Part shown: positions 51,272 through 57,859 of the stretch, in pieces
Position numbering within the stretch: position 1 is the stretch's first letter
Layout: the number at the start of each line of letters is the position of its first letter
Notes under the pieces: generated by a model
Seen by the model: the letters and a program-made list of their open reading frames with translations, nothing else
The model's database searches: none
What the model was told of the DNA's origin: nothing
NCBI GenBank assembly: GCA_001438605.1
Contig: LIDE01000022.1
Coordinates: 1-57,930 of the forward strand
Direction of reading: 5' to 3'
DNA length: 57,930 bases
Source of the DNA: SAR92 bacterium BACL16 MAG-120619-bin48
GTDB lineage: Bacteria; Pseudomonadota; Gammaproteobacteria; Pseudomonadales; Porticoccaceae
Translations under genes and position numbers: made by a program

Positions 51272-51356
51272 GCCCAAGTGGTGAAATTGGTAGACACGCT
51301 ATCTTGAGGGGGTAGTGGCGAAAGCTGTGCCGGTTCAAGTCCGGCCTTGGGCACCA
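51272..51356 (+). tRNA. tRNA-Leu (anticodon GAG)
   Basis: The 85-base gene folds as a class II tRNA with acceptor stem GCCCAAG/CTTGGGC. It has a D arm with TTGGTAGAC, anticodon stem CTATC/GGTAG around loop TTGAGGG (anticodon GAG), and a variable arm. The T arm is CCGG-TTCAAGT-CCGG and the CCA end is encoded. It matches the leuU position behind secG. Confidence 0.97.
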
Positions 51357-51695: not shown

Positions 51696-51743
51696 TTTAA
51701 GATGCAGTTATGCATTTACCAAAACGTTCGGGAGGGCTCATTT

Positions 51744-54215
51744 ATGACAATCTCTAATATGAAAAAATCTAAATCCGTTTTGCGCGGGTTGGCTGCGCGG
51801 CGTTTTGCTGTGGCACCTCTGGCCTTTGCTATTGCTAATATAGCATTGCCCTCGGCATCTTTTGCCGCGGAGGAGTATAAAACCCTTGAAGAAATCGTGG
51901 TAACGGCCACTAAGCGTGCGGAAGATCTTCAAAGTGTCCCCCAAAGTATCACGGCTTTTTCTGGTGATACCATGGAGATCATGGGGATTAGTAGTATGAG
52001 TGATTATATTAAGGCTCTACCTAGTGTCACGCTAACAGCAACACAGCCAGGTAGAAATTCCTTGGCTATGCGCGGCATTTCATCGGGTTCACGTGAATAT
52101 TATACCGATGGACAGGTTGCTGTGTATCTCGATGATATTCCCATGACAACCAACTCACAGCAAGTGAGTGTTCGCCCTATTGATATGGAACGGGTTGAAT
52201 CTTTACATGGCCCCCAAGGTACACTTTATGGGTCTAGCTCTCAAACGGGGACTCTTCGTTTAATCACTAATAAACCCAACCATGAGGGTTTGGCCGGTAG
52301 TCTTGAAACAAGCTATGGCATGACCGGAGGTGGCGACGGTAGCTATGACATTAATGGCCATATCAATATACCATTAATTGAAGATGTTCTAGCCATGCGC
52401 GCGGTACTTTACTCTACAAAAGATGGCGGCTATGTTGATAATGTTGCCGGTGCAAGCTTAAGTGGTAACCACCGCAATGATGACCCCGGCTATAACGTTG
52501 TTGATGAAAACCAAAATGAATACGGCACGCTAGGTGGCCGTATAATGTTTGCTTTCAAGTTCAATGAAAATTGGAACGCGCTCTTAACAGTGGTGACTGA
52601 AAACAGTGAGTTGGACGGCACCTGGGCAACCGACCCTCTGTTAGGCGACTATAAAGTGACTCGTTTCATCGACGAAAATCGAGAAGATGATTGGCTTTCT
52701 GGGTCTTTAACCCTGGAAGGTGATCTAGGTTTTGCTAATTTAGTTGTCTCAGCGACACGTCTTGAACGCGACATTACCTACAACTGGGATAATGACGTTT
52801 ATACGCAATACAAAGATCGTTACTACGGCAATGGCTATAATGCCTATGGTACTCTCTATGGCTTGTATAACACCGAGTATAACCGTAGCTTTATATTTAA
52901 TAATCAATCGCAAGAGCGCGATACCGTTGAAATTCGTTTGGCTTCAAAAGGTGAGAGCCGATTGCAATGGACAGCCGGTTTGTTCTACGAAGATGTATAC
53001 GATGAATGGTTCTACGGGTCCTCTAATGAGAACCTAGGAGATACAACGGCATGGGCAACCGCGCAAGCTTATGCCTATTACTATGGCGTCGCAAATTACT
53101 ACAATAATTACACGCCTAACCCAAATCAAGCTTACCCATTACCTGACTCTGATCACGGCTACGTGAATATTTTTGAGCGCTCGGTAAAACAAATAGCTGT
53201 ATTTGGCGAGGTATCCTACGATATTACTGAAGATTTGAGTGTGAAGGGAGGGTTCCGTTGGTCTGAGTTTGATCGTGATGTGTTTAGTTTAACTTACTTC
53301 CCCGACGGTTTGATTACTGCAGGCCGAGCCGATGGTGGTGATGGTGCCACACGAAGTCAGGGTAAAGCCGACGACACTATTTATAAATTGTCACTGACCT
53401 ATGCGATTAATGAAGATGTTATGGTGTACGGTTTATATAGTCAGGGCTTTAGACTCGGCGGTTCAAACAGCCCGCGTGCGGTCGCTACAGGTGAGGTTAC
53501 AGCCAACTATGGCTCTGATACGTTAGATAATTATGAGTTGGGCGTTAAAAGTTACTGGTGGGATAACCGGATAAAATTTAATGCGACACTATTTCAAATG
53601 AAATGGAAGGATTATCAGCAAAGCACAACATTCAAACAATGGTGGAATAGAGGTACGCTTAATGCGGGCGACGCGGGCAGTACCGGTATTGAATTAGACT
53701 TAGGTTTGCAGGCAACGGATAATCTAAAAATTAATTTGAGTTTATTTTCTGCAGATGCAAAGTTTGACGACGATATTTACTTTAGTGCTACTGCAGATCC
53801 GACCACGGACGACGTAGATATTCGGAAGGGTATGGACTTACCTAGTTCACCTGACTTAAAAGGCCACGTTAGTGTTCTCTATGATATACCTGATGTTTTA
53901 GGTGGTGATGCCTGGGTTTATTTTGATACGAGCTATCAAAGTGAGACCTGGAATGGCACTACAGATATTGTGGCTAATAATAGAAATGGTTTATCTGGTA
54001 CTTATAAAGTGAGTAATTTGTCGTTTGGTCTGGATATGTCAGACGGGTTAAATGTCACGTTGCAAATTGATAATGTTTTTGACAATAATGGCTCTACCTA
54101 TGTGTCTACATCAGGTAATAATGACGCAGACCTATTTGGCGATAACCGTTTTCATAATGAACGAACACTCGAGAGGCCGCGAACGACGTGGCTGACGGTG
54201 CGCAAGACGTTCTAG
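51744..54215 (+). CDS. TonB-dependent outer-membrane receptor with tyrosine-rich segments
   Basis: The 823-residue protein has a long signal peptide (about 1-41, cleavage after SFA) and a TonB-box-like LEEIVVTA (48-55). A plug domain follows (about 60-175), with QGTLYGSSSQTGTLRLITNKP-like features split across its end. The C-terminal 22-strand-type barrel ends in Phe. Substrate is unknown. Two segments are exceptionally rich in Tyr: 346-379 (ten Tyr) and 443-473 (nine Tyr, with AYAYYYG). Both lie in the barrel part and are probably surface loops. GGAGGG seven bases before ATG 51744 decides the start. It is monocistronic by its terminator and is followed by a beta-propeller gene. Confidence 0.93.
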   Translation: MTISNMKKSKSVLRGLAARRFAVAPLAFAIANIALPSASFAAEEYKTLEEIVVTATKRAEDLQSVPQSITAFSGDTMEIMGISSMSDYIKALPSVTLTATQPGRNSLAMRGISSGSREYYTDGQVAVYLDDIPMTTNSQQVSVRPIDMERVESLHGPQGTLYGSSSQTGTLRLITNKPNHEGLAGSLETSYGMTGGGDGSYDINGHINIPLIEDVLAMRAVLYSTKDGGYVDNVAGASLSGNHRNDDPGYNVVDENQNEYGTLGGRIMFAFKFNENWNALLTVVTENSELDGTWATDPLLGDYKVTRFIDENREDDWLSGSLTLEGDLGFANLVVSATRLERDITYNWDNDVYTQYKDRYYGNGYNAYGTLYGLYNTEYNRSFIFNNQSQERDTVEIRLASKGESRLQWTAGLFYEDVYDEWFYGSSNENLGDTTAWATAQAYAYYYGVANYYNNYTPNPNQAYPLPDSDHGYVNIFERSVKQIAVFGEVSYDITEDLSVKGGFRWSEFDRDVFSLTYFPDGLITAGRADGGDGATRSQGKADDTIYKLSLTYAINEDVMVYGLYSQGFRLGGSNSPRAVATGEVTANYGSDTLDNYELGVKSYWWDNRIKFNATLFQMKWKDYQQSTTFKQWWNRGTLNAGDAGSTGIELDLGLQATDNLKINLSLFSADAKFDDDIYFSATADPTTDDVDIRKGMDLPSSPDLKGHVSVLYDIPDVLGGDAWVYFDTSYQSETWNGTTDIVANNRNGLSGTYKVSNLSFGLDMSDGLNVTLQIDNVFDNNGSTYVSTSGNNDADLFGDNRFHNERTLERPRTTWLTVRKTF

Positions 54216-54218
54216 TAA

Positions 54219-54250
54219 AAAGGGCGGGTGACATACCCGCCCTTTTTTTT
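54219..54250 (+). terminator. Terminator after the receptor gene
   Basis: An 11-bp perfect stem AAAGGGCGGGT/ACCCGCCCTTT with a five-base loop is followed by further T residues. It is one of the strongest terminators in the window. Confidence 0.9.
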
Positions 54251-54316
54251 GCCTCATTTATCGTGATACTATTTTTTAAGTGAATTTTTTACATTAGTCT
54301 TTAGAATTTTTTGTAT

Positions 54317-55243
54317 ATGGTTAAATTAGTAACAAGCTCTGTTGTTAGGGGGAGTCAGCAAGGTGAGAGCCATGGTGGCGTTTATCTCATTGATTTCGAA
54401 AATGAATCAGTGGAGCAAAAGTTAGATTGGGATACCGTTAATATTGATTGGCGGGGTAGAGGTTGGGATAGAGGCCTTCGAGGAATCTGTTTTGACGATG
54501 ATAAAATCTACATTGCAGCTAGTGATGAATTATTTGCTTTTACCCCAAGGTTTGAGCTCATAGGTTCTTGGCGGAATCCTTACTTAAAGCACTGCCATGA
54601 AATAACGGTTTTTAAGCGCAAGATTTTTTTAACCTCGACGGGCTTCGATAGTATTTTGTCATTTGACCTTGATAAGCAAGTTTTTGATTGGGGCATGACG
54701 ATTCAAAATAGGCAATTCAGGTTTAACGGTAAACGATTTGACCCTCAGTCAGATGATGGGCCTATGATGTTTAATAAACTGCATATCAATAATGTGTTTT
54801 GCAATGAAAACGGGATGTATCTATCGGGCTTGAAGTCCGGTGGAATGTTGCATTACAACGGTAGTGAAGTGAATATGTCGGTTGAGCTACCCCTAGGCAC
54901 GCATAATGCGAGGCCTTTTCGGGATGGTGTGCTATTTAACGACACCAATGATGACGTGCTTCGTTATACCGGTAGAGGTGAAGGCGAGGAAGACAGGGCC
55001 ATGGCAGTGCCTAAATATCTAGACAGTGAAATGACACATTTAGATAAAAGAGATGAGGTGATGGCCAGACCTGGTTTCGCCCGGGGGCTCTGTGTTTTGT
55101 CAGATTCAGTGGTCGCCGGAGGATCATCACCATCAACGGTTACTTTGTATAATTTACCCAAAAACCAACAGATTGCTAGCGCAAATATTAGCAATGATGT
55201 TCGTAATGGTATTCATGGTTTAGAAGTGTGGCCATTTGATTGA
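54317..55243 (+). CDS. Beta-propeller-like protein, possibly DUF4915/TIGR03032-like
   Basis: I do not recognise this 308-residue protein with certainty. It has repeated short strand patterns ending in aromatic-Asp turns (YLIDFENE, IYIAASDELFAF, ILSFDLDKQVFDW, VTLYNL), which suggests a beta-propeller. A GFARGLCVLSDSVVAGGSS segment near residue 254 resembles the FARGL motif I associate with DUF4915/TIGR03032 proteins. Conserved-looking His residues occur in KHCHEI, KLHINN, GTHNARPF and GIHGLEVWP. No signal peptide is evident, so it is probably cytosolic. ATG 54317 is chosen over a TTG at 54311. It faces the sulfotransferase gene 16 bases away. Confidence 0.6.
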   Translation: MVKLVTSSVVRGSQQGESHGGVYLIDFENESVEQKLDWDTVNIDWRGRGWDRGLRGICFDDDKIYIAASDELFAFTPRFELIGSWRNPYLKHCHEITVFKRKIFLTSTGFDSILSFDLDKQVFDWGMTIQNRQFRFNGKRFDPQSDDGPMMFNKLHINNVFCNENGMYLSGLKSGGMLHYNGSEVNMSVELPLGTHNARPFRDGVLFNDTNDDVLRYTGRGEGEEDRAMAVPKYLDSEMTHLDKRDEVMARPGFARGLCVLSDSVVAGGSSPSTVTLYNLPKNQQIASANISNDVRNGIHGLEVWPFD

Positions 55244-55250
55244 TTAGCAG

Positions 55251-55272
55251 TGCATGGCTTTAAAGCCCTGCA
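55251..55272. repeat. Near-perfect 22-base palindrome between convergent genes
   Basis: TGCA and GGCTTT on one side mirror AAAGCC and TGCA on the other, with a single mismatch pair. The sulfotransferase stop codon lies inside it. It may act as a weak bidirectional terminator, but no clear T tract follows on either strand. Confidence 0.45.
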
Positions 55273-57278
55273 TTTCTGGATGCCTCAGGTAACTCATCAA
55301 TAATATAGCCTAGTTGATCTTTCCATAAATCTAGATGCTGTTCGTAACGTCGCCATTTACCTAGGGCTCCGGTATAAATTGGCTGGCGAACCTGTTCTGA
55401 GCTTGCCGTTTTTACGGCCCGCTCGTTTTGGTAAAAACGTAAACACTCTTCTTCAAAGGGTAGATTGCAAAAATCTAATATTTGTCTAACTTGATGCTCT
55501 AAATCGGTCACAGTAACTTCGTAATGCACATCGAGAATCTCGCCGGGTAGTACGCCGTGCCAATGCTTCATCATTAAATCATATTCTTTGTAATAATGAG
55601 CCAGGTCAAACATATCGTAAGTGAAGTTTTGGCCTCGTCCAAAGAGTTGTTTGTAACCGCCTAGACAACTATCAAAAGGGTGGCGTCGTGCATTAATTAT
55701 TTTGGCATTAGGTAAAATAGTTTTAATAAAACCTACGTGGGAAAAGTTATTAGGCAGCTTGTCTGTAAAAAATGGCTTGTTAGTCATTCGGTGTCTTTGG
55801 CTTTCTTCTATATATTGCTTACCATAAGCCACTAAGTCTTTATTACGCAGCTCGGCAACAGCTTCGGGATAGCGAATACTGTCGTTTCTATACCGGCCAA
55901 TATGATCAGATATTTTATTTACTATCGGCAGTTCTGAAGTGCCCTCTACCTGGCTATGGCTGGCAATAATTTGCTCGATGAGGGTTGATCCAGATCGAGG
56001 AAGTCCAACAATAAAAATAGGATCGGGTGCTGAATGGCCTACGCCTTTCTTTTCTATCATAAAGGTCTGACTAAAGGTGTTTTTAATGGCGGTGTTTCTA
56101 CCTTCCATTTCTAATGGGTCGTGTTCAACCGTCATTCTTTGCTTTTGGTTACCTTGGTGATAATAGTGCCAGGCACTATCGTAATCTTTAACGTCTTCCA
56201 ACGATTTGGCGAGAGCAAAATTGAAGTGAATTTGTGAGGTTTCAGAAAGCTCAGTCTGTTGAAGCTGAGCTTTCATCGCATCAACCTCTTCATTTTCAAA
56301 TTTAAAAACCTTTAAGTTAGCCATGCTCCAATAAACCTCACCAAGATCTGGTCTGAGTTTGATGGCGTTTCGATAGGCTTTGAGGGCTCCTGCTTGGTCA
56401 CCTATGGTTTTTAGTTCATGAGCATAAGATGTATTGACATGAGGAGCGTCAGGTTTGATAGCTAATGATTGCTCGAAGGCTTCGGCGCTCTTTTCTGGAT
56501 ACATGGCTCTGCCGTAAGCGTTGCCCAGCCCTGTCCATCCATCAGCATTTTTAGGCTCTAAGCTGGTGCATTTTTTAAACGTCTTGATAGCATCAAGGTA
56601 TTTATTTTGCTCCATGAGCACACACCCCAGCATATGCCAGGCTTCATAGTAGCTAGCAGATATTTGTGTCGCTCGTCTCAGCAAGGCTTCCGCGTCATTG
56701 AAGTTGTTTTTTTCTTGCCAGTAAGCACCAGCTAAATGCCTCAGTGCATTGATGTTGTCAGGGCTTCTTTTTAATACGGATCGAAAGGCTGCAATGGCAT
56801 CGTCATGCTTGCCCGCGCGCTGAAGCTCTATGCCTTTTATAACATCGGCTCTATCGGAGTTTTGTTCTATGTATTCTTCAAAGGCTAAATCAGCATCCTC
56901 ACCTCGTCCTTCTGCAGCCAGAGCTTCACCTAGTTTTTTATTTGCATGTGGCAGCGTGGGTAGAAGGGCAATAGCTTTCTCAAAAAGCGGTATAGCTTCA
57001 TTGAACCGAGATTGTAAGGATAAAATACTCGCTAGGTCTTCATAGAGGTGTGGGAAGTCTGGGTCTAGTTCAATGGCAAATTTCAATTGCTCCTCGGCTT
57101 CGATGAGTCTGTTTTGTGCTATCAATGAGTGACCGAGTAATCTCATATGATGGGTGCAACCTTGATGCTTAATCAAATAGTCTCGGCATAGCTCCTCTGC
57201 ACGTAAAGGTCTATTTGAGCGAAGAAATTCGATCGCTTGCTGAAGGCTGTTATTTTTTATTTCTGGCATTAGATTCAT
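55260..57278 (-). CDS. TPR-repeat sulfotransferase family protein
   Basis: The 672-residue protein combines about ten tetratricopeptide repeats (1-400) with a C-terminal sulfotransferase domain. The 5'-phosphosulfate loop is VGLPRSGSTLIEQ (P-loop at 425-432), and the 3'-phosphate motif is NARRHPFDSCLGGY (Ser537). The combination of PRSGST, a GTSEL segment and a C-terminal ASSEQVRQPIY block recalls tyrosylprotein-sulfotransferase-like enzymes, in which TPRs could hold a protein substrate. No signal peptide or membrane helix is visible, so it should act in the cytoplasm where PAPS is made. The start is uncertain (ATG 57278 or 57269) and lacks a ribosome site. It lies eight bases after the dioxygenase gene. 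Confidence 0.85.
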   Translation of the reverse strand: MNLMPEIKNNSLQQAIEFLRSNRPLRAEELCRDYLIKHQGCTHHMRLLGHSLIAQNRLIEAEEQLKFAIELDPDFPHLYEDLASILSLQSRFNEAIPLFEKAIALLPTLPHANKKLGEALAAEGRGEDADLAFEEYIEQNSDRADVIKGIELQRAGKHDDAIAAFRSVLKRSPDNINALRHLAGAYWQEKNNFNDAEALLRRATQISASYYEAWHMLGCVLMEQNKYLDAIKTFKKCTSLEPKNADGWTGLGNAYGRAMYPEKSAEAFEQSLAIKPDAPHVNTSYAHELKTIGDQAGALKAYRNAIKLRPDLGEVYWSMANLKVFKFENEEVDAMKAQLQQTELSETSQIHFNFALAKSLEDVKDYDSAWHYYHQGNQKQRMTVEHDPLEMEGRNTAIKNTFSQTFMIEKKGVGHSAPDPIFIVGLPRSGSTLIEQIIASHSQVEGTSELPIVNKISDHIGRYRNDSIRYPEAVAELRNKDLVAYGKQYIEESQRHRMTNKPFFTDKLPNNFSHVGFIKTILPNAKIINARRHPFDSCLGGYKQLFGRGQNFTYDMFDLAHYYKEYDLMMKHWHGVLPGEILDVHYEVTVTDLEHQVRQILDFCNLPFEEECLRFYQNERAVKTASSEQVRQPIYTGALGKWRRYEQHLDLWKDQLGYIIDELPEASRNAGL

Positions 57279-57286
57279 GGTGGTGT

Positions 57287-57859
57287 CTATTGTGTTTCGG
57301 GTGAGGTCTTTGGCAGATTTTGTGGGGGTACATAATCAAAGATAAATGAAATTCTATCTTCGTCACTCATATTTATCACACTATGTTTTTTTTGATTGTT
57401 AATTTCATAAGCCTGACCTACTTCGAACGGGTAAGGACGGCCATCGATGGTAAATCGAACGGCGGGATTTGTAGTAATAGGTATGTGAATTCTATGGCCA
57501 ATATGGAAAGAGTGAAGTGTGTCTCTGTGCGGTCTAATTTGGCCTTTTGCTTTTAGTTTGGCAGCCATTGCGCGTAATAATATTCCGCCGGGTGGGTAGT
57601 GTTTTTCTAGGATGGCATTAATGATCGGCATGGCAGCTTCTGACAATCTATCCCAGCCCATATCTTTATGTATCTCACCTTTAGGCCAGCTTTCTTCACA
57701 AAATAGCATGACGATTGACTCGGTATCTTTATGCACCTCGTAGGTTTGTTGTCTAAGGAATTGCTCTGTCCAGGCTTCAGAAGGCTGATTCAGTATGCAC
57801 TGCTTTAAGTCATCAATTAAAAATTTGCCTAATGGCTTTTGAGCTACGTCTATATCCAT
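57287..57859 (-). CDS. Aspartyl/asparaginyl beta-hydroxylase-like dioxygenase
   Basis: The 190-residue protein fits the aspartyl/asparaginyl beta-hydroxylase family of Fe(II)/2-oxoglutarate enzymes. It has PHRDTLHSFHIGHRIHIPI with His111 and Asp113, the distal His159 in KKHSVIN, and Arg169 in DEDRISFIFDY for 2-oxoglutarate. Human AspH has Gly at the Asp113 position, whereas here the full HxD is kept. No signal peptide is seen, so it is likely cytosolic. It is followed eight bases later by the TPR-sulfotransferase gene, so the two form an operon. The target is unknown. Confidence 0.8.
   Translation of the reverse strand: MDIDVAQKPLGKFLIDDLKQCILNQPSEAWTEQFLRQQTYEVHKDTESIVMLFCEESWPKGEIHKDMGWDRLSEAAMPIINAILEKHYPPGGILLRAMAAKLKAKGQIRPHRDTLHSFHIGHRIHIPITTNPAVRFTIDGRPYPFEVGQAYEINNQKKHSVINMSDEDRISFIFDYVPPQNLPKTSPETQ

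Follow-up and report, generated by a model that had tools for sequence, protein, structure and literature searches.

A conserved proteobacterial gene cluster of a TonB-dependent receptor, a TPR-sulfotransferase, a propeller protein and a small hydroxylase: a possible receptor-tailoring unit

Introduction

Cytosolic glycosyltransferases modify autotransporters before export, and peptidylglycine amidating lyase is a six-bladed metal propeller that works with a hydroxylase partner; TonB-dependent receptors (TBDTs) are, to our knowledge, not known to be covalently tailored. For bacterial tyrosine sulfation, the worked example in the consulted parts of the sources is RaxX (PMC9372746, PMC6637879), and the first of these describes its tyrosylprotein sulfotransferase (TPST), RaxST, as acting in the cytoplasm before secretion (PMC9372746). 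Here we describe a cluster of four genes that encode a TBDT, a β-propeller protein (PROP), a tetratricopeptide repeat (TPR) protein with a TPST-like sulfotransferase (ST) domain (TPRST) and a small 2-oxoglutarate (2OG)/Fe(II) hydroxylase. It lies in contig LIDE01000022.1 of SAR92 bacterium BACL16 MAG-120619-bin48 (Porticoccaceae), whose full 57,930 nucleotides are hereafter the window. Mapped loci, genomes and contigs of this analysis carry L-, G- and C-numbers respectively.

Results

Conservation of the cluster

The first-pass annotation of the window had grouped these four genes, and all are indeed complete, intact open reading frames (ORFs) at 51744–57859, with Pfam support for TBDT, TPRST and hydroxylase. 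TBDT (51744–54215) and PROP (54311–55243) are on the forward strand and TPRST (55260–57278) and the hydroxylase (57287–57859) on the reverse, separated by gaps of 95, 16 and 8 bases, so that the hydroxylase gene precedes TPRST by 8 bases in their shared orientation. The cluster is conserved, recurring in alpha- and gammaproteobacteria that include many water and soil bacteria; the annotation's proposal depended on such a neighbourhood, and in relatives it is strongly conserved. Of 143 relatives, 24 carry PROP, one of these with no more than a distant match (23%). Around the 80 titled PROP loci that we mapped (the best 80 of at least 183 relatives), a TBDT was present in 70, TPRST in 68 and the hydroxylase in 33, irrespective of flank length, the corresponding numbers being 32, 32 and 21 for the 37 loci flanked by 9 kb or more on both sides; among the 16 titled loci missing TBDT or TPRST, PROP lies within 1 kb of the locus end in seven. 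Among the titles are Woeseiaceae, Halieaceae, Lysobacterales, Emcibacteraceae and Hyphomonadaceae, as well as the isolate Microbulbifer sp. NKW57, whose locus L101 has the complete set of four. Loci L106, L132 (CAMAXE010000001.1) and L131 (CAMDAC010000025.1) are on contigs of metagenome-assembled genomes (MAGs) titled Klebsiella pneumoniae and Candidatus Sulfopaludibacter; the titles of these two records may be wrong, such loci being otherwise alpha- or gammaproteobacterial.

After merging loci and removing duplicate records, 95 loci had a full PROP (ORF of 280–360 residues; partners counted as full-length ORFs within 9 kb). All four genes were present in 35 and TBDT plus TPRST without the hydroxylase in 33, hence TBDT and TPRST together in 68; the others had TBDT (10), TPRST (6), TBDT and hydroxylase (2), TPRST and hydroxylase (1) or PROP alone (8), and several of these partner-poor loci sit at contig ends. 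The next commonest neighbour family of at least 90 residues was found at 27 of 104 loci. Four PROP loners (L095, L126, L137 and L138) are nested among linked PROPs and represent separate losses of linkage.

The hydroxylase also follows PROP by genome. Its profile matched 24 of the 143 relatives with at least 293 bits, the next match being at 122 bits, and 23 of these 24 are exactly the 23 full-PROP genomes, the exception being G013 (82% complete). Adjacency is not needed, because nine of the 23 genomes carry the strong hydroxylase match only on a contig other than that with PROP. In a phylum-wide sample of 398 genomes, PROP and hydroxylase (E up to 1e-50) occur in the same two genomes. PROP and hydroxylase are an accessory pair, coupled genome-wide, and the core of the cassette is TBDT plus TPRST.

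Several surveys bear on this core. The 33 TBDT matches that reach 700 bits among the relatives (at most seven candidates scored per genome) all fall within the 23 PROP/hydroxylase genomes; this threshold is partly circular, some of these loci having gone into the profile, and alignment A4 was likewise built in part from genomes later searched with it. Among 20 second-tier TBDTs (530–660 bits, from PROP-positive and PROP-negative genomes), 18 adjoin TPRST and, in the stretches fetched, none has PROP or the hydroxylase nearby. In three PROP-negative genomes, all five long single-domain ST frames (481–670 residues) are beside a TBDT as against none of ten other ST frames, and five of 78 TBDT matches are ST-adjacent. 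In the window's own genome, an ST is next to four of the 32 TBDT matches, of which one is a weak fragment at the end of its contig; a fifth ST is on a contig of only 3.3 kb. None of 20 further TBDT regions of this genome had PROP, the hydroxylase or a TPRST match of at least 200 bits; as these were taken down a ranked list with known TPRST-linked cases omitted (and also C33:2628, with no reason recorded), they serve as a loop control and not as an adjacency count. In the phylum sample, five of the 20 top ST matches score above 650 bits with the TPRST profile and all five are beside a TBDT with the tyrosine-rich loop described below, as against none of the 14 at 411–592 bits; one lacked a called ORF, and two of the top 22 had been omitted (one lies at a contig edge, the other belongs to a tandem set). 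The 20 second-tier regions, these 20 phylum loci and 16 control TBDTs from G022 were hand-picked from ranked lists. At G022:C1:120303-122303, a 1107-residue frame has two Sulfotransfer_3 domains and no adjacent TBDT.

Plasmids also carry the core. Eight of 130 plasmid records matching TPRST were examined, and the TBDT–TPRST pair was found on plasmids of three Novosphingobium strains, N. pentaromativorans US6-1 among them (one annotated, two from ORF calls), while plasmid pASDW145_1 of Asticcacaulis sp. DW145 (L323) has an annotated row of TBDT, ST, hydroxylase and ST; no PROP match was found in the plasmid collection. The L323 row consists of a TonB receptor, a family 2 sulfotransferase, an aspartyl/asparaginyl hydroxylase and a TPR-sulfotransferase, with a further sulfotransferase about 0.9 kb on. 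A different cluster, at locus L066 (G140:C11:72000-90000), combines two sulfotransferase-like proteins, two of the Asp_Arg_Hydrox type and a remote relative of PROP (22–23% identity), and BLAST with the window's receptor found no TBDT there.

The tyrosine-rich receptor loop

The 823-residue TBDT of the window has Pfam barrel (7.3e-23) and plug (9.4e-16) matches, both over the cut-off, and a signal peptide and TonB box seen by eye only. In the receptor tree it belongs to the TPRST-linked TBDT clade, and 20 PROP-linked TBDTs make up one side of a branch with SH-aLRT support of 99. Alignment of the TBDTs revealed a 43-residue loop with nine tyrosines (codons at 52788–52916, forward strand; residues 363–405 as numbered on the ORF starting at 51702). 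This loop averages 48 residues in 79 cassette TBDTs against 24 in 16 other TBDTs of the same genome, with tyrosine contents of 15.6% and 3.6% respectively, and reaches 16.1% tyrosine in the 20 second-tier TBDTs. The highest tyrosine count in any 30 residues averaged 7.66 in 79 PROP-linked TBDTs, 7.39 in 23 TPRST-linked TBDTs without PROP at the locus (range 5–11) and 4.22 in 32 unlinked TBDTs (range 3–6, so that the sets overlap). Mann–Whitney values against the unlinked TBDTs are 2e-15 (PROP-linked) and 2e-9 (TPRST-linked without PROP), and overstate the independent evidence because the TPRST-linked TBDTs fall in three lineages and yield four pairs. Phe, Asn, Asp and Ser show no comparable excess; Thr is slightly raised in the TPRST-linked TBDTs without PROP and Trp in the PROP-linked ones. 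Rows dropped from these comparisons were four of the 20 own-genome regions without a profile-found TBDT ORF above 600 residues, and the TBDT of L283 (G017:C1:1230000-1241000), which adjoins TPRST and is split into two frames of 267 and 556 residues.

An association of the loop with PROP was considered and proved wrong, since the second-tier TBDTs show that the loop tracks TPRST linkage; L280, with no TPRST nearby, has no loop. The loop is probably extracellular, given TBDT topology, because it is long and follows a strand read as running upward. In a tree without the loop columns, the TPRST-linked TBDTs form three lineages, the main one holding nearly all rows. A second (L068, L281 and L282) has a different tyrosine cluster, with acidic residues seen by eye in L281 and L282.

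The sulfotransferase

TPRST combines N-terminal TPR repeats, matched by many Pfam TPR models, with a C-terminal Sulfotransfer_3 domain (1.9e-47), and no signal peptide was seen in it by eye. A profile search of the PDB with the domain retrieved CurM, TPST1 and TPST2 at 2e-8 to 3e-4, and TPST1 aligns across the domain (NKDP to DKLP, STDQV to SSEQV, GALSKW to GALGKW). The GLPRSGSTL loop for binding 3'-phosphoadenosine 5'-phosphosulfate (PAPS) is conserved, and by its motifs and catalytic-type residues the protein would class as a TPST-like enzyme. PAPS-loop Arg428, Glu449, Lys507, Arg532, Ser626 and Trp642 are each kept in at least 95% of either of two groups of TBDT-linked TPRSTs (86 and 22 proteins; of the 86 counted as PROP-linked, two come from loci of the own genome that have no PROP). 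These residues are characteristic of the enzyme family and not of its receptor-linked subset, because 14 of 14 other TPR-sulfotransferases keep them too. An APS kinase for PAPS synthesis is encoded in the genome.

TPRST might instead sulfate a surface polysaccharide or lipid, the adjacent receptor being coupled to it by regulation only. In the PDB, the polyketide sulfotransferase CurM is no more distant than TPST1, 14 of the 20 sampled TPR-sulfotransferases are away from TBDTs, and those on enterobacterial plasmids are beside a family 8 glycosyltransferase. We nonetheless regard this explanation as unlikely, for in the phylum sample the TBDT-linked TPRSTs stand apart with high scores, and the only sugar-related family at ten or more of the 104 loci (all but two families being annotated) is a LacZ-type galactosidase. 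On the enterobacterial plasmids (L325, Kluyvera; L327, Enterobacter sp. 638; L328, Lelliottia), the TPR-sulfotransferase gene overlaps that of the family 8 glycosyltransferase and an autotransporter gene follows, whose product has 12% Ser and 9–12% Thr and is not tyrosine-rich.

The annotation had the enzymes modifying either the receptor or a peptide ligand. The receptor half gains from the tyrosine loop encoded beside a TPST-like enzyme, whereas the peptide half does not: among ORFs of 22–109 residues within 6 kb of PROP, BLAST found none common to more than four of 96 PROP loci, in keeping with its remark that no small precursor peptide was visible. A ribosomal precursor peptide of the RaxX kind, or a ribosomally synthesized and post-translationally modified peptide (RiPP), with the TBDT as its receptor, is accordingly a very improbable substrate. 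RaxST and RaxX do illustrate, in the consulted part of the source, that bacterial TPSTs modify small peptides (PMC6637879), but no shared small precursor gene was found in the cluster, whose gaps are as short as given above, and membership in a RaxX-like or RiPP system was rejected for these loci.

The propeller and the hydroxylase

PROP (310 residues) has no accepted Pfam family, the best candidate, DUF4915, being rejected at 13.8 bits against a cut-off of 35, and no NCBIfam match up to E 0.1. From alignments A1 and A2 and an AlphaFold model built from 64 relatives (mean pLDDT 90.9), it is predicted to be a six-bladed β-propeller, with blades counted from strand order, of an undescribed family. 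A profile search of the PDB gave only generic or repeat-inflated WD40-type matches, and Foldseek only general propellers among the 50 best. One set of conserved residues marks the inner-strand start of each blade in the model (Arg57, His94/His96, His158, His198, Arg258 and His302), so that near-invariant histidines occur on four blades and two arginines are invariant. These together with His21, Glu97 and Asp211 form a ten-residue pattern that is intact in 60 of 64 PROPs; two deviate only at His21 and L044 is unreadable at position 158. Counting only the histidines and arginines expected at the pore, 62 of the 64 have all of them, one has a single unreadable position and one shows losses. PROP may be a partner, as the annotation proposed, or an enzyme; because histidines on four blades and two arginines would line its pore, a metal enzyme seems probable, with the pore as predicted metal site. 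The PROP that lost the pattern, at L064 (1856–2788; G133:C72), is beside TBDT and TPRST; it lacks His94, His96, Glu97, His158, His198 and His302 and keeps His21, Asp211 and both arginines. The joint loss of these residues fits the prediction of a joint site, points to a non-catalytic role kept at this locus and makes the paralogue a probable pseudoenzyme.

The hydroxylase matches Pfam Asp_Arg_Hydrox (1.1e-12; 48.6 bits, cut-off 22.6), and all 39 sequences compared share His111, Asp113, His159 and Arg169, giving an HxD...H motif plus Arg that we take to be a full facial triad and the 2OG-binding residue. A profile search of the PDB with the hydroxylase alignment gave no match. In Foldseek, its model (pLDDT 91.1) came closest to L-proline cis-4-hydroxylase (4p7w, 4p7x), with AspH (5apa) eighth, at TM-scores of about 0.5–0.6 that are not decisive for substrate. 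The iron site of AspH lacks an acidic ligand, and AspH proper was rejected on the HxD motif; LpxO was rejected too (NCBIfam lipid_A_LpxO, 16 bits against a cut-off of 500). The earlier description of an AspH-like dioxygenase thus stands for the domain but is loose as an AspH-type label, because of the invariant HxD...H plus Arg and the nearest fold.

For these two proteins in particular, another account has to be weighed, in which a small nitrogen-rich molecule or a peptide enters through the TBDT and is then degraded or detoxified in the cytosol by hydroxylase, PROP and TPRST. Catabolic neighbours recur (Xaa-Pro dipeptidase-like amidohydrolase at 21 of 104 loci, class-III aminotransferase at 19, methylenetetrahydrofolate reductase (MTHFR)-like at 15, GbcA-like Rieske protein at 11; each family named from one representative), the hydroxylase fold is closest to an enzyme acting on free proline, and PROP at L126 is without TBDT, among sarcosine-oxidase-like, betaine/choline/carnitine transporter (BCCT) and MTHFR-like genes. 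The neighbours, however, vary from locus to locus (LacZ type at 10 of 104, aminotransferase type elsewhere) and TBDT and TPRST stay; PAPS-dependent sulfotransfer is not a usual catabolic step; the TBDT–TPRST pair occurs without PROP or hydroxylase beside it; and the PROP loners are secondary. Such ligand processing, which is the strongest rival for PROP and the hydroxylase, seems to us possible if rather unlikely for the cassette as a whole.

Sequence context of the window

The window is the whole of contig C22 of a 2.53-Mb draft genome and, as the annotation stated, ends just past the hydroxylase gene (71 bases beyond its start). The A+T-richer sequence it described is apparent too, G+C fractions being 0.438 and 0.415 in the last two listed 2-kb windows against 0.47–0.57 earlier. 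Its use of a tRNA as a landmark of the cassette did not hold up: the stretch that runs from 51733 to the end of the contig matches two relatives (G003 and G007, treated as separate species) at 99.8% identity, with unrelated left flanks, so the common block starts after the tRNA-Leu(GAG) at 51272–51356, which we rejected as a cassette part. A recent transfer between species or a chimeric contig of the draft assembly would explain this block, and the existence of the cassette is independent of this contig. The closest titled record among the matches listed is a Porticoccaceae MAG (94% in PROP).

Discussion

We tentatively favour, at slightly short of even confidence, the reading that the cassette is a receptor-tailoring unit, in which TPRST sulfates loop tyrosines of the adjacent receptor before export and the hydroxylase and PROP may perform a second step; the occurrence of sulfation, its substrate, the sequence of steps, the loop's place outside the cell and any function of PROP and hydroxylase are inferred here. 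The cytosolic, TPR-guided TPRST would bind the unfolded TBDT precursor encoded beside it and sulfate tyrosines of the one long tyrosine-rich loop before Sec export, as RaxST does with RaxX before secretion. A cytosolic enzyme for an exported receptor is plausible because a bacterial TPST acts in the cytoplasm before secretion, as described in the consulted part of PMC9372746. The assembled receptor would then display a flexible, anionic, aromatic arm that captures ligand and, in a subclade, the 2OG hydroxylase and PROP might act on this receptor in a second step or aid the first. We prefer receptor modification because receptor, loop and enzymes are constant across loci while the catabolic neighbours change (LacZ with a symporter; aminotransferase with ketoacid dehydrogenase; Rieske protein with folate-dependent demethylases). 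In mirror-tree comparisons, moreover, the distances of PROP, TBDT and TPRST correlate with one another (r 0.82–0.87, n = 68). As many neighbours look like handlers of peptides, amines or betaines, an anionic aromatic loop could, speculatively, serve cationic ligands.

A number of observations weigh against this reading. L279 has the loop without a TPRST within 7–8 kb. L069, the third TPRST-linked receptor lineage, is near background (five tyrosines in 30 residues), L068 has six, a value matched by three of the 32 unlinked TBDTs, and counts of only five were found for the receptor of Asticcacaulis and for one of the two that neighbour the enzyme of Novosphingobium US6-1. An independent-pairs test had only four pairs and no significance, loop and linkage sharing few origins, and the mirror-tree correlations take no account of species relatedness. 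TPST acceptor tyrosines have acidic residues beside them, and D/E is not enriched at −3 to +3 of the loop tyrosines, only at −4. HMMER does not align Glu449 exactly with what we take to be the position of the TPST catalytic Glu. The wider TPR-sulfotransferase family may have other targets, because its contexts differ on the three enterobacterial plasmids, where it is paired with a glycosyltransferase and an autotransporter that is not tyrosine-rich, and on a Methylovirgula plasmid, where it adjoins a urea transporter. Candidate hydroxylase targets were also sought as receptor residues special to PROP-linked TBDTs, and only Ala and Pro (which half of the others share) and Met emerged.

With the loop nearly a clade trait and acidic context not enriched, one may ask whether it is simply an unmodified aromatic binding platform of a TBDT clade, co-inherited with a TPRST of other function. 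That linkage is kept across classes, and that the separate TPRST-adjacent lineage (L281, L282) has another tyrosine cluster with acidic residues, argue against such a platform, which we consider improbable. Extending the tailoring reading further, a dedicated maturation system of Gram-negative bacteria for nutrient receptors of the outer membrane, in which a TPR-guided sulfotransferase writes sulfotyrosines on the tyrosine-rich surface loop of its own TonB receptor, with one branch adding a 2OG hydroxylase and a histidine-rich metal propeller for a chemically new change, is conceivable at a clearly lower level of confidence. By analogy with hydroxylase–lyase pairs, that change might, for example and just as doubtfully, be hydroxylation followed by metal-dependent cleavage or rearrangement.

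If the tailoring reading is true, one class of nutrient receptors, in bacteria of water and soil, would bear a written surface code missed by sequence databases, uptake assays with receptors produced in other hosts would work with an unmodified form, and a biochemical context would be at hand for an undescribed family of propellers. A search of the open-access literature, subscription literature lying outside it, found no paper on a TBDT–sulfotransferase cassette.

The cassette resembles several known systems in part. Like autotransporter glycosyltransferases, TPRST would be a cytosolic enzyme whose gene adjoins that of its outer-membrane target, though the glycosyltransferases transfer sugar and not sulfate, and to an autotransporter and not a TonB receptor. 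In the analogy with peptidylglycine amidating lyase, PROP would share the six blades counted in its model, the predicted His and Arg of the pore and a hydroxylase partner; there is, however, no sequence match between them, and the Foldseek matches were general propellers. The cassette hydroxylase shares Asp_Arg_Hydrox with human AspH and bacterial L-proline cis-4-hydroxylase, the latter nearer in fold, and differs from AspH in its HxD...H motif and in having no TPR part in the same chain. Metazoan TPST1 and TPST2 are alignable over the full ST domain with its Lys, Ser and GALxKW features, at E-values of only 3e-8 to 3e-4, but are Golgi-anchored according to the consulted part of the source (PMC9372746), whereas TPRST is cytosolic and TPR-fused. 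RaxX–RaxST of Xanthomonas, as far as those parts of the sources describe it (PMC9372746, PMC6637879), has in common with the cassette a cytosolic, unanchored TPST-like enzyme acting before export, its gene beside the target; it differs from our cassette, in which no shared small peptide gene was found, the enzyme has a long TPR domain and the proposed target is a Sec-exported β-barrel receptor.

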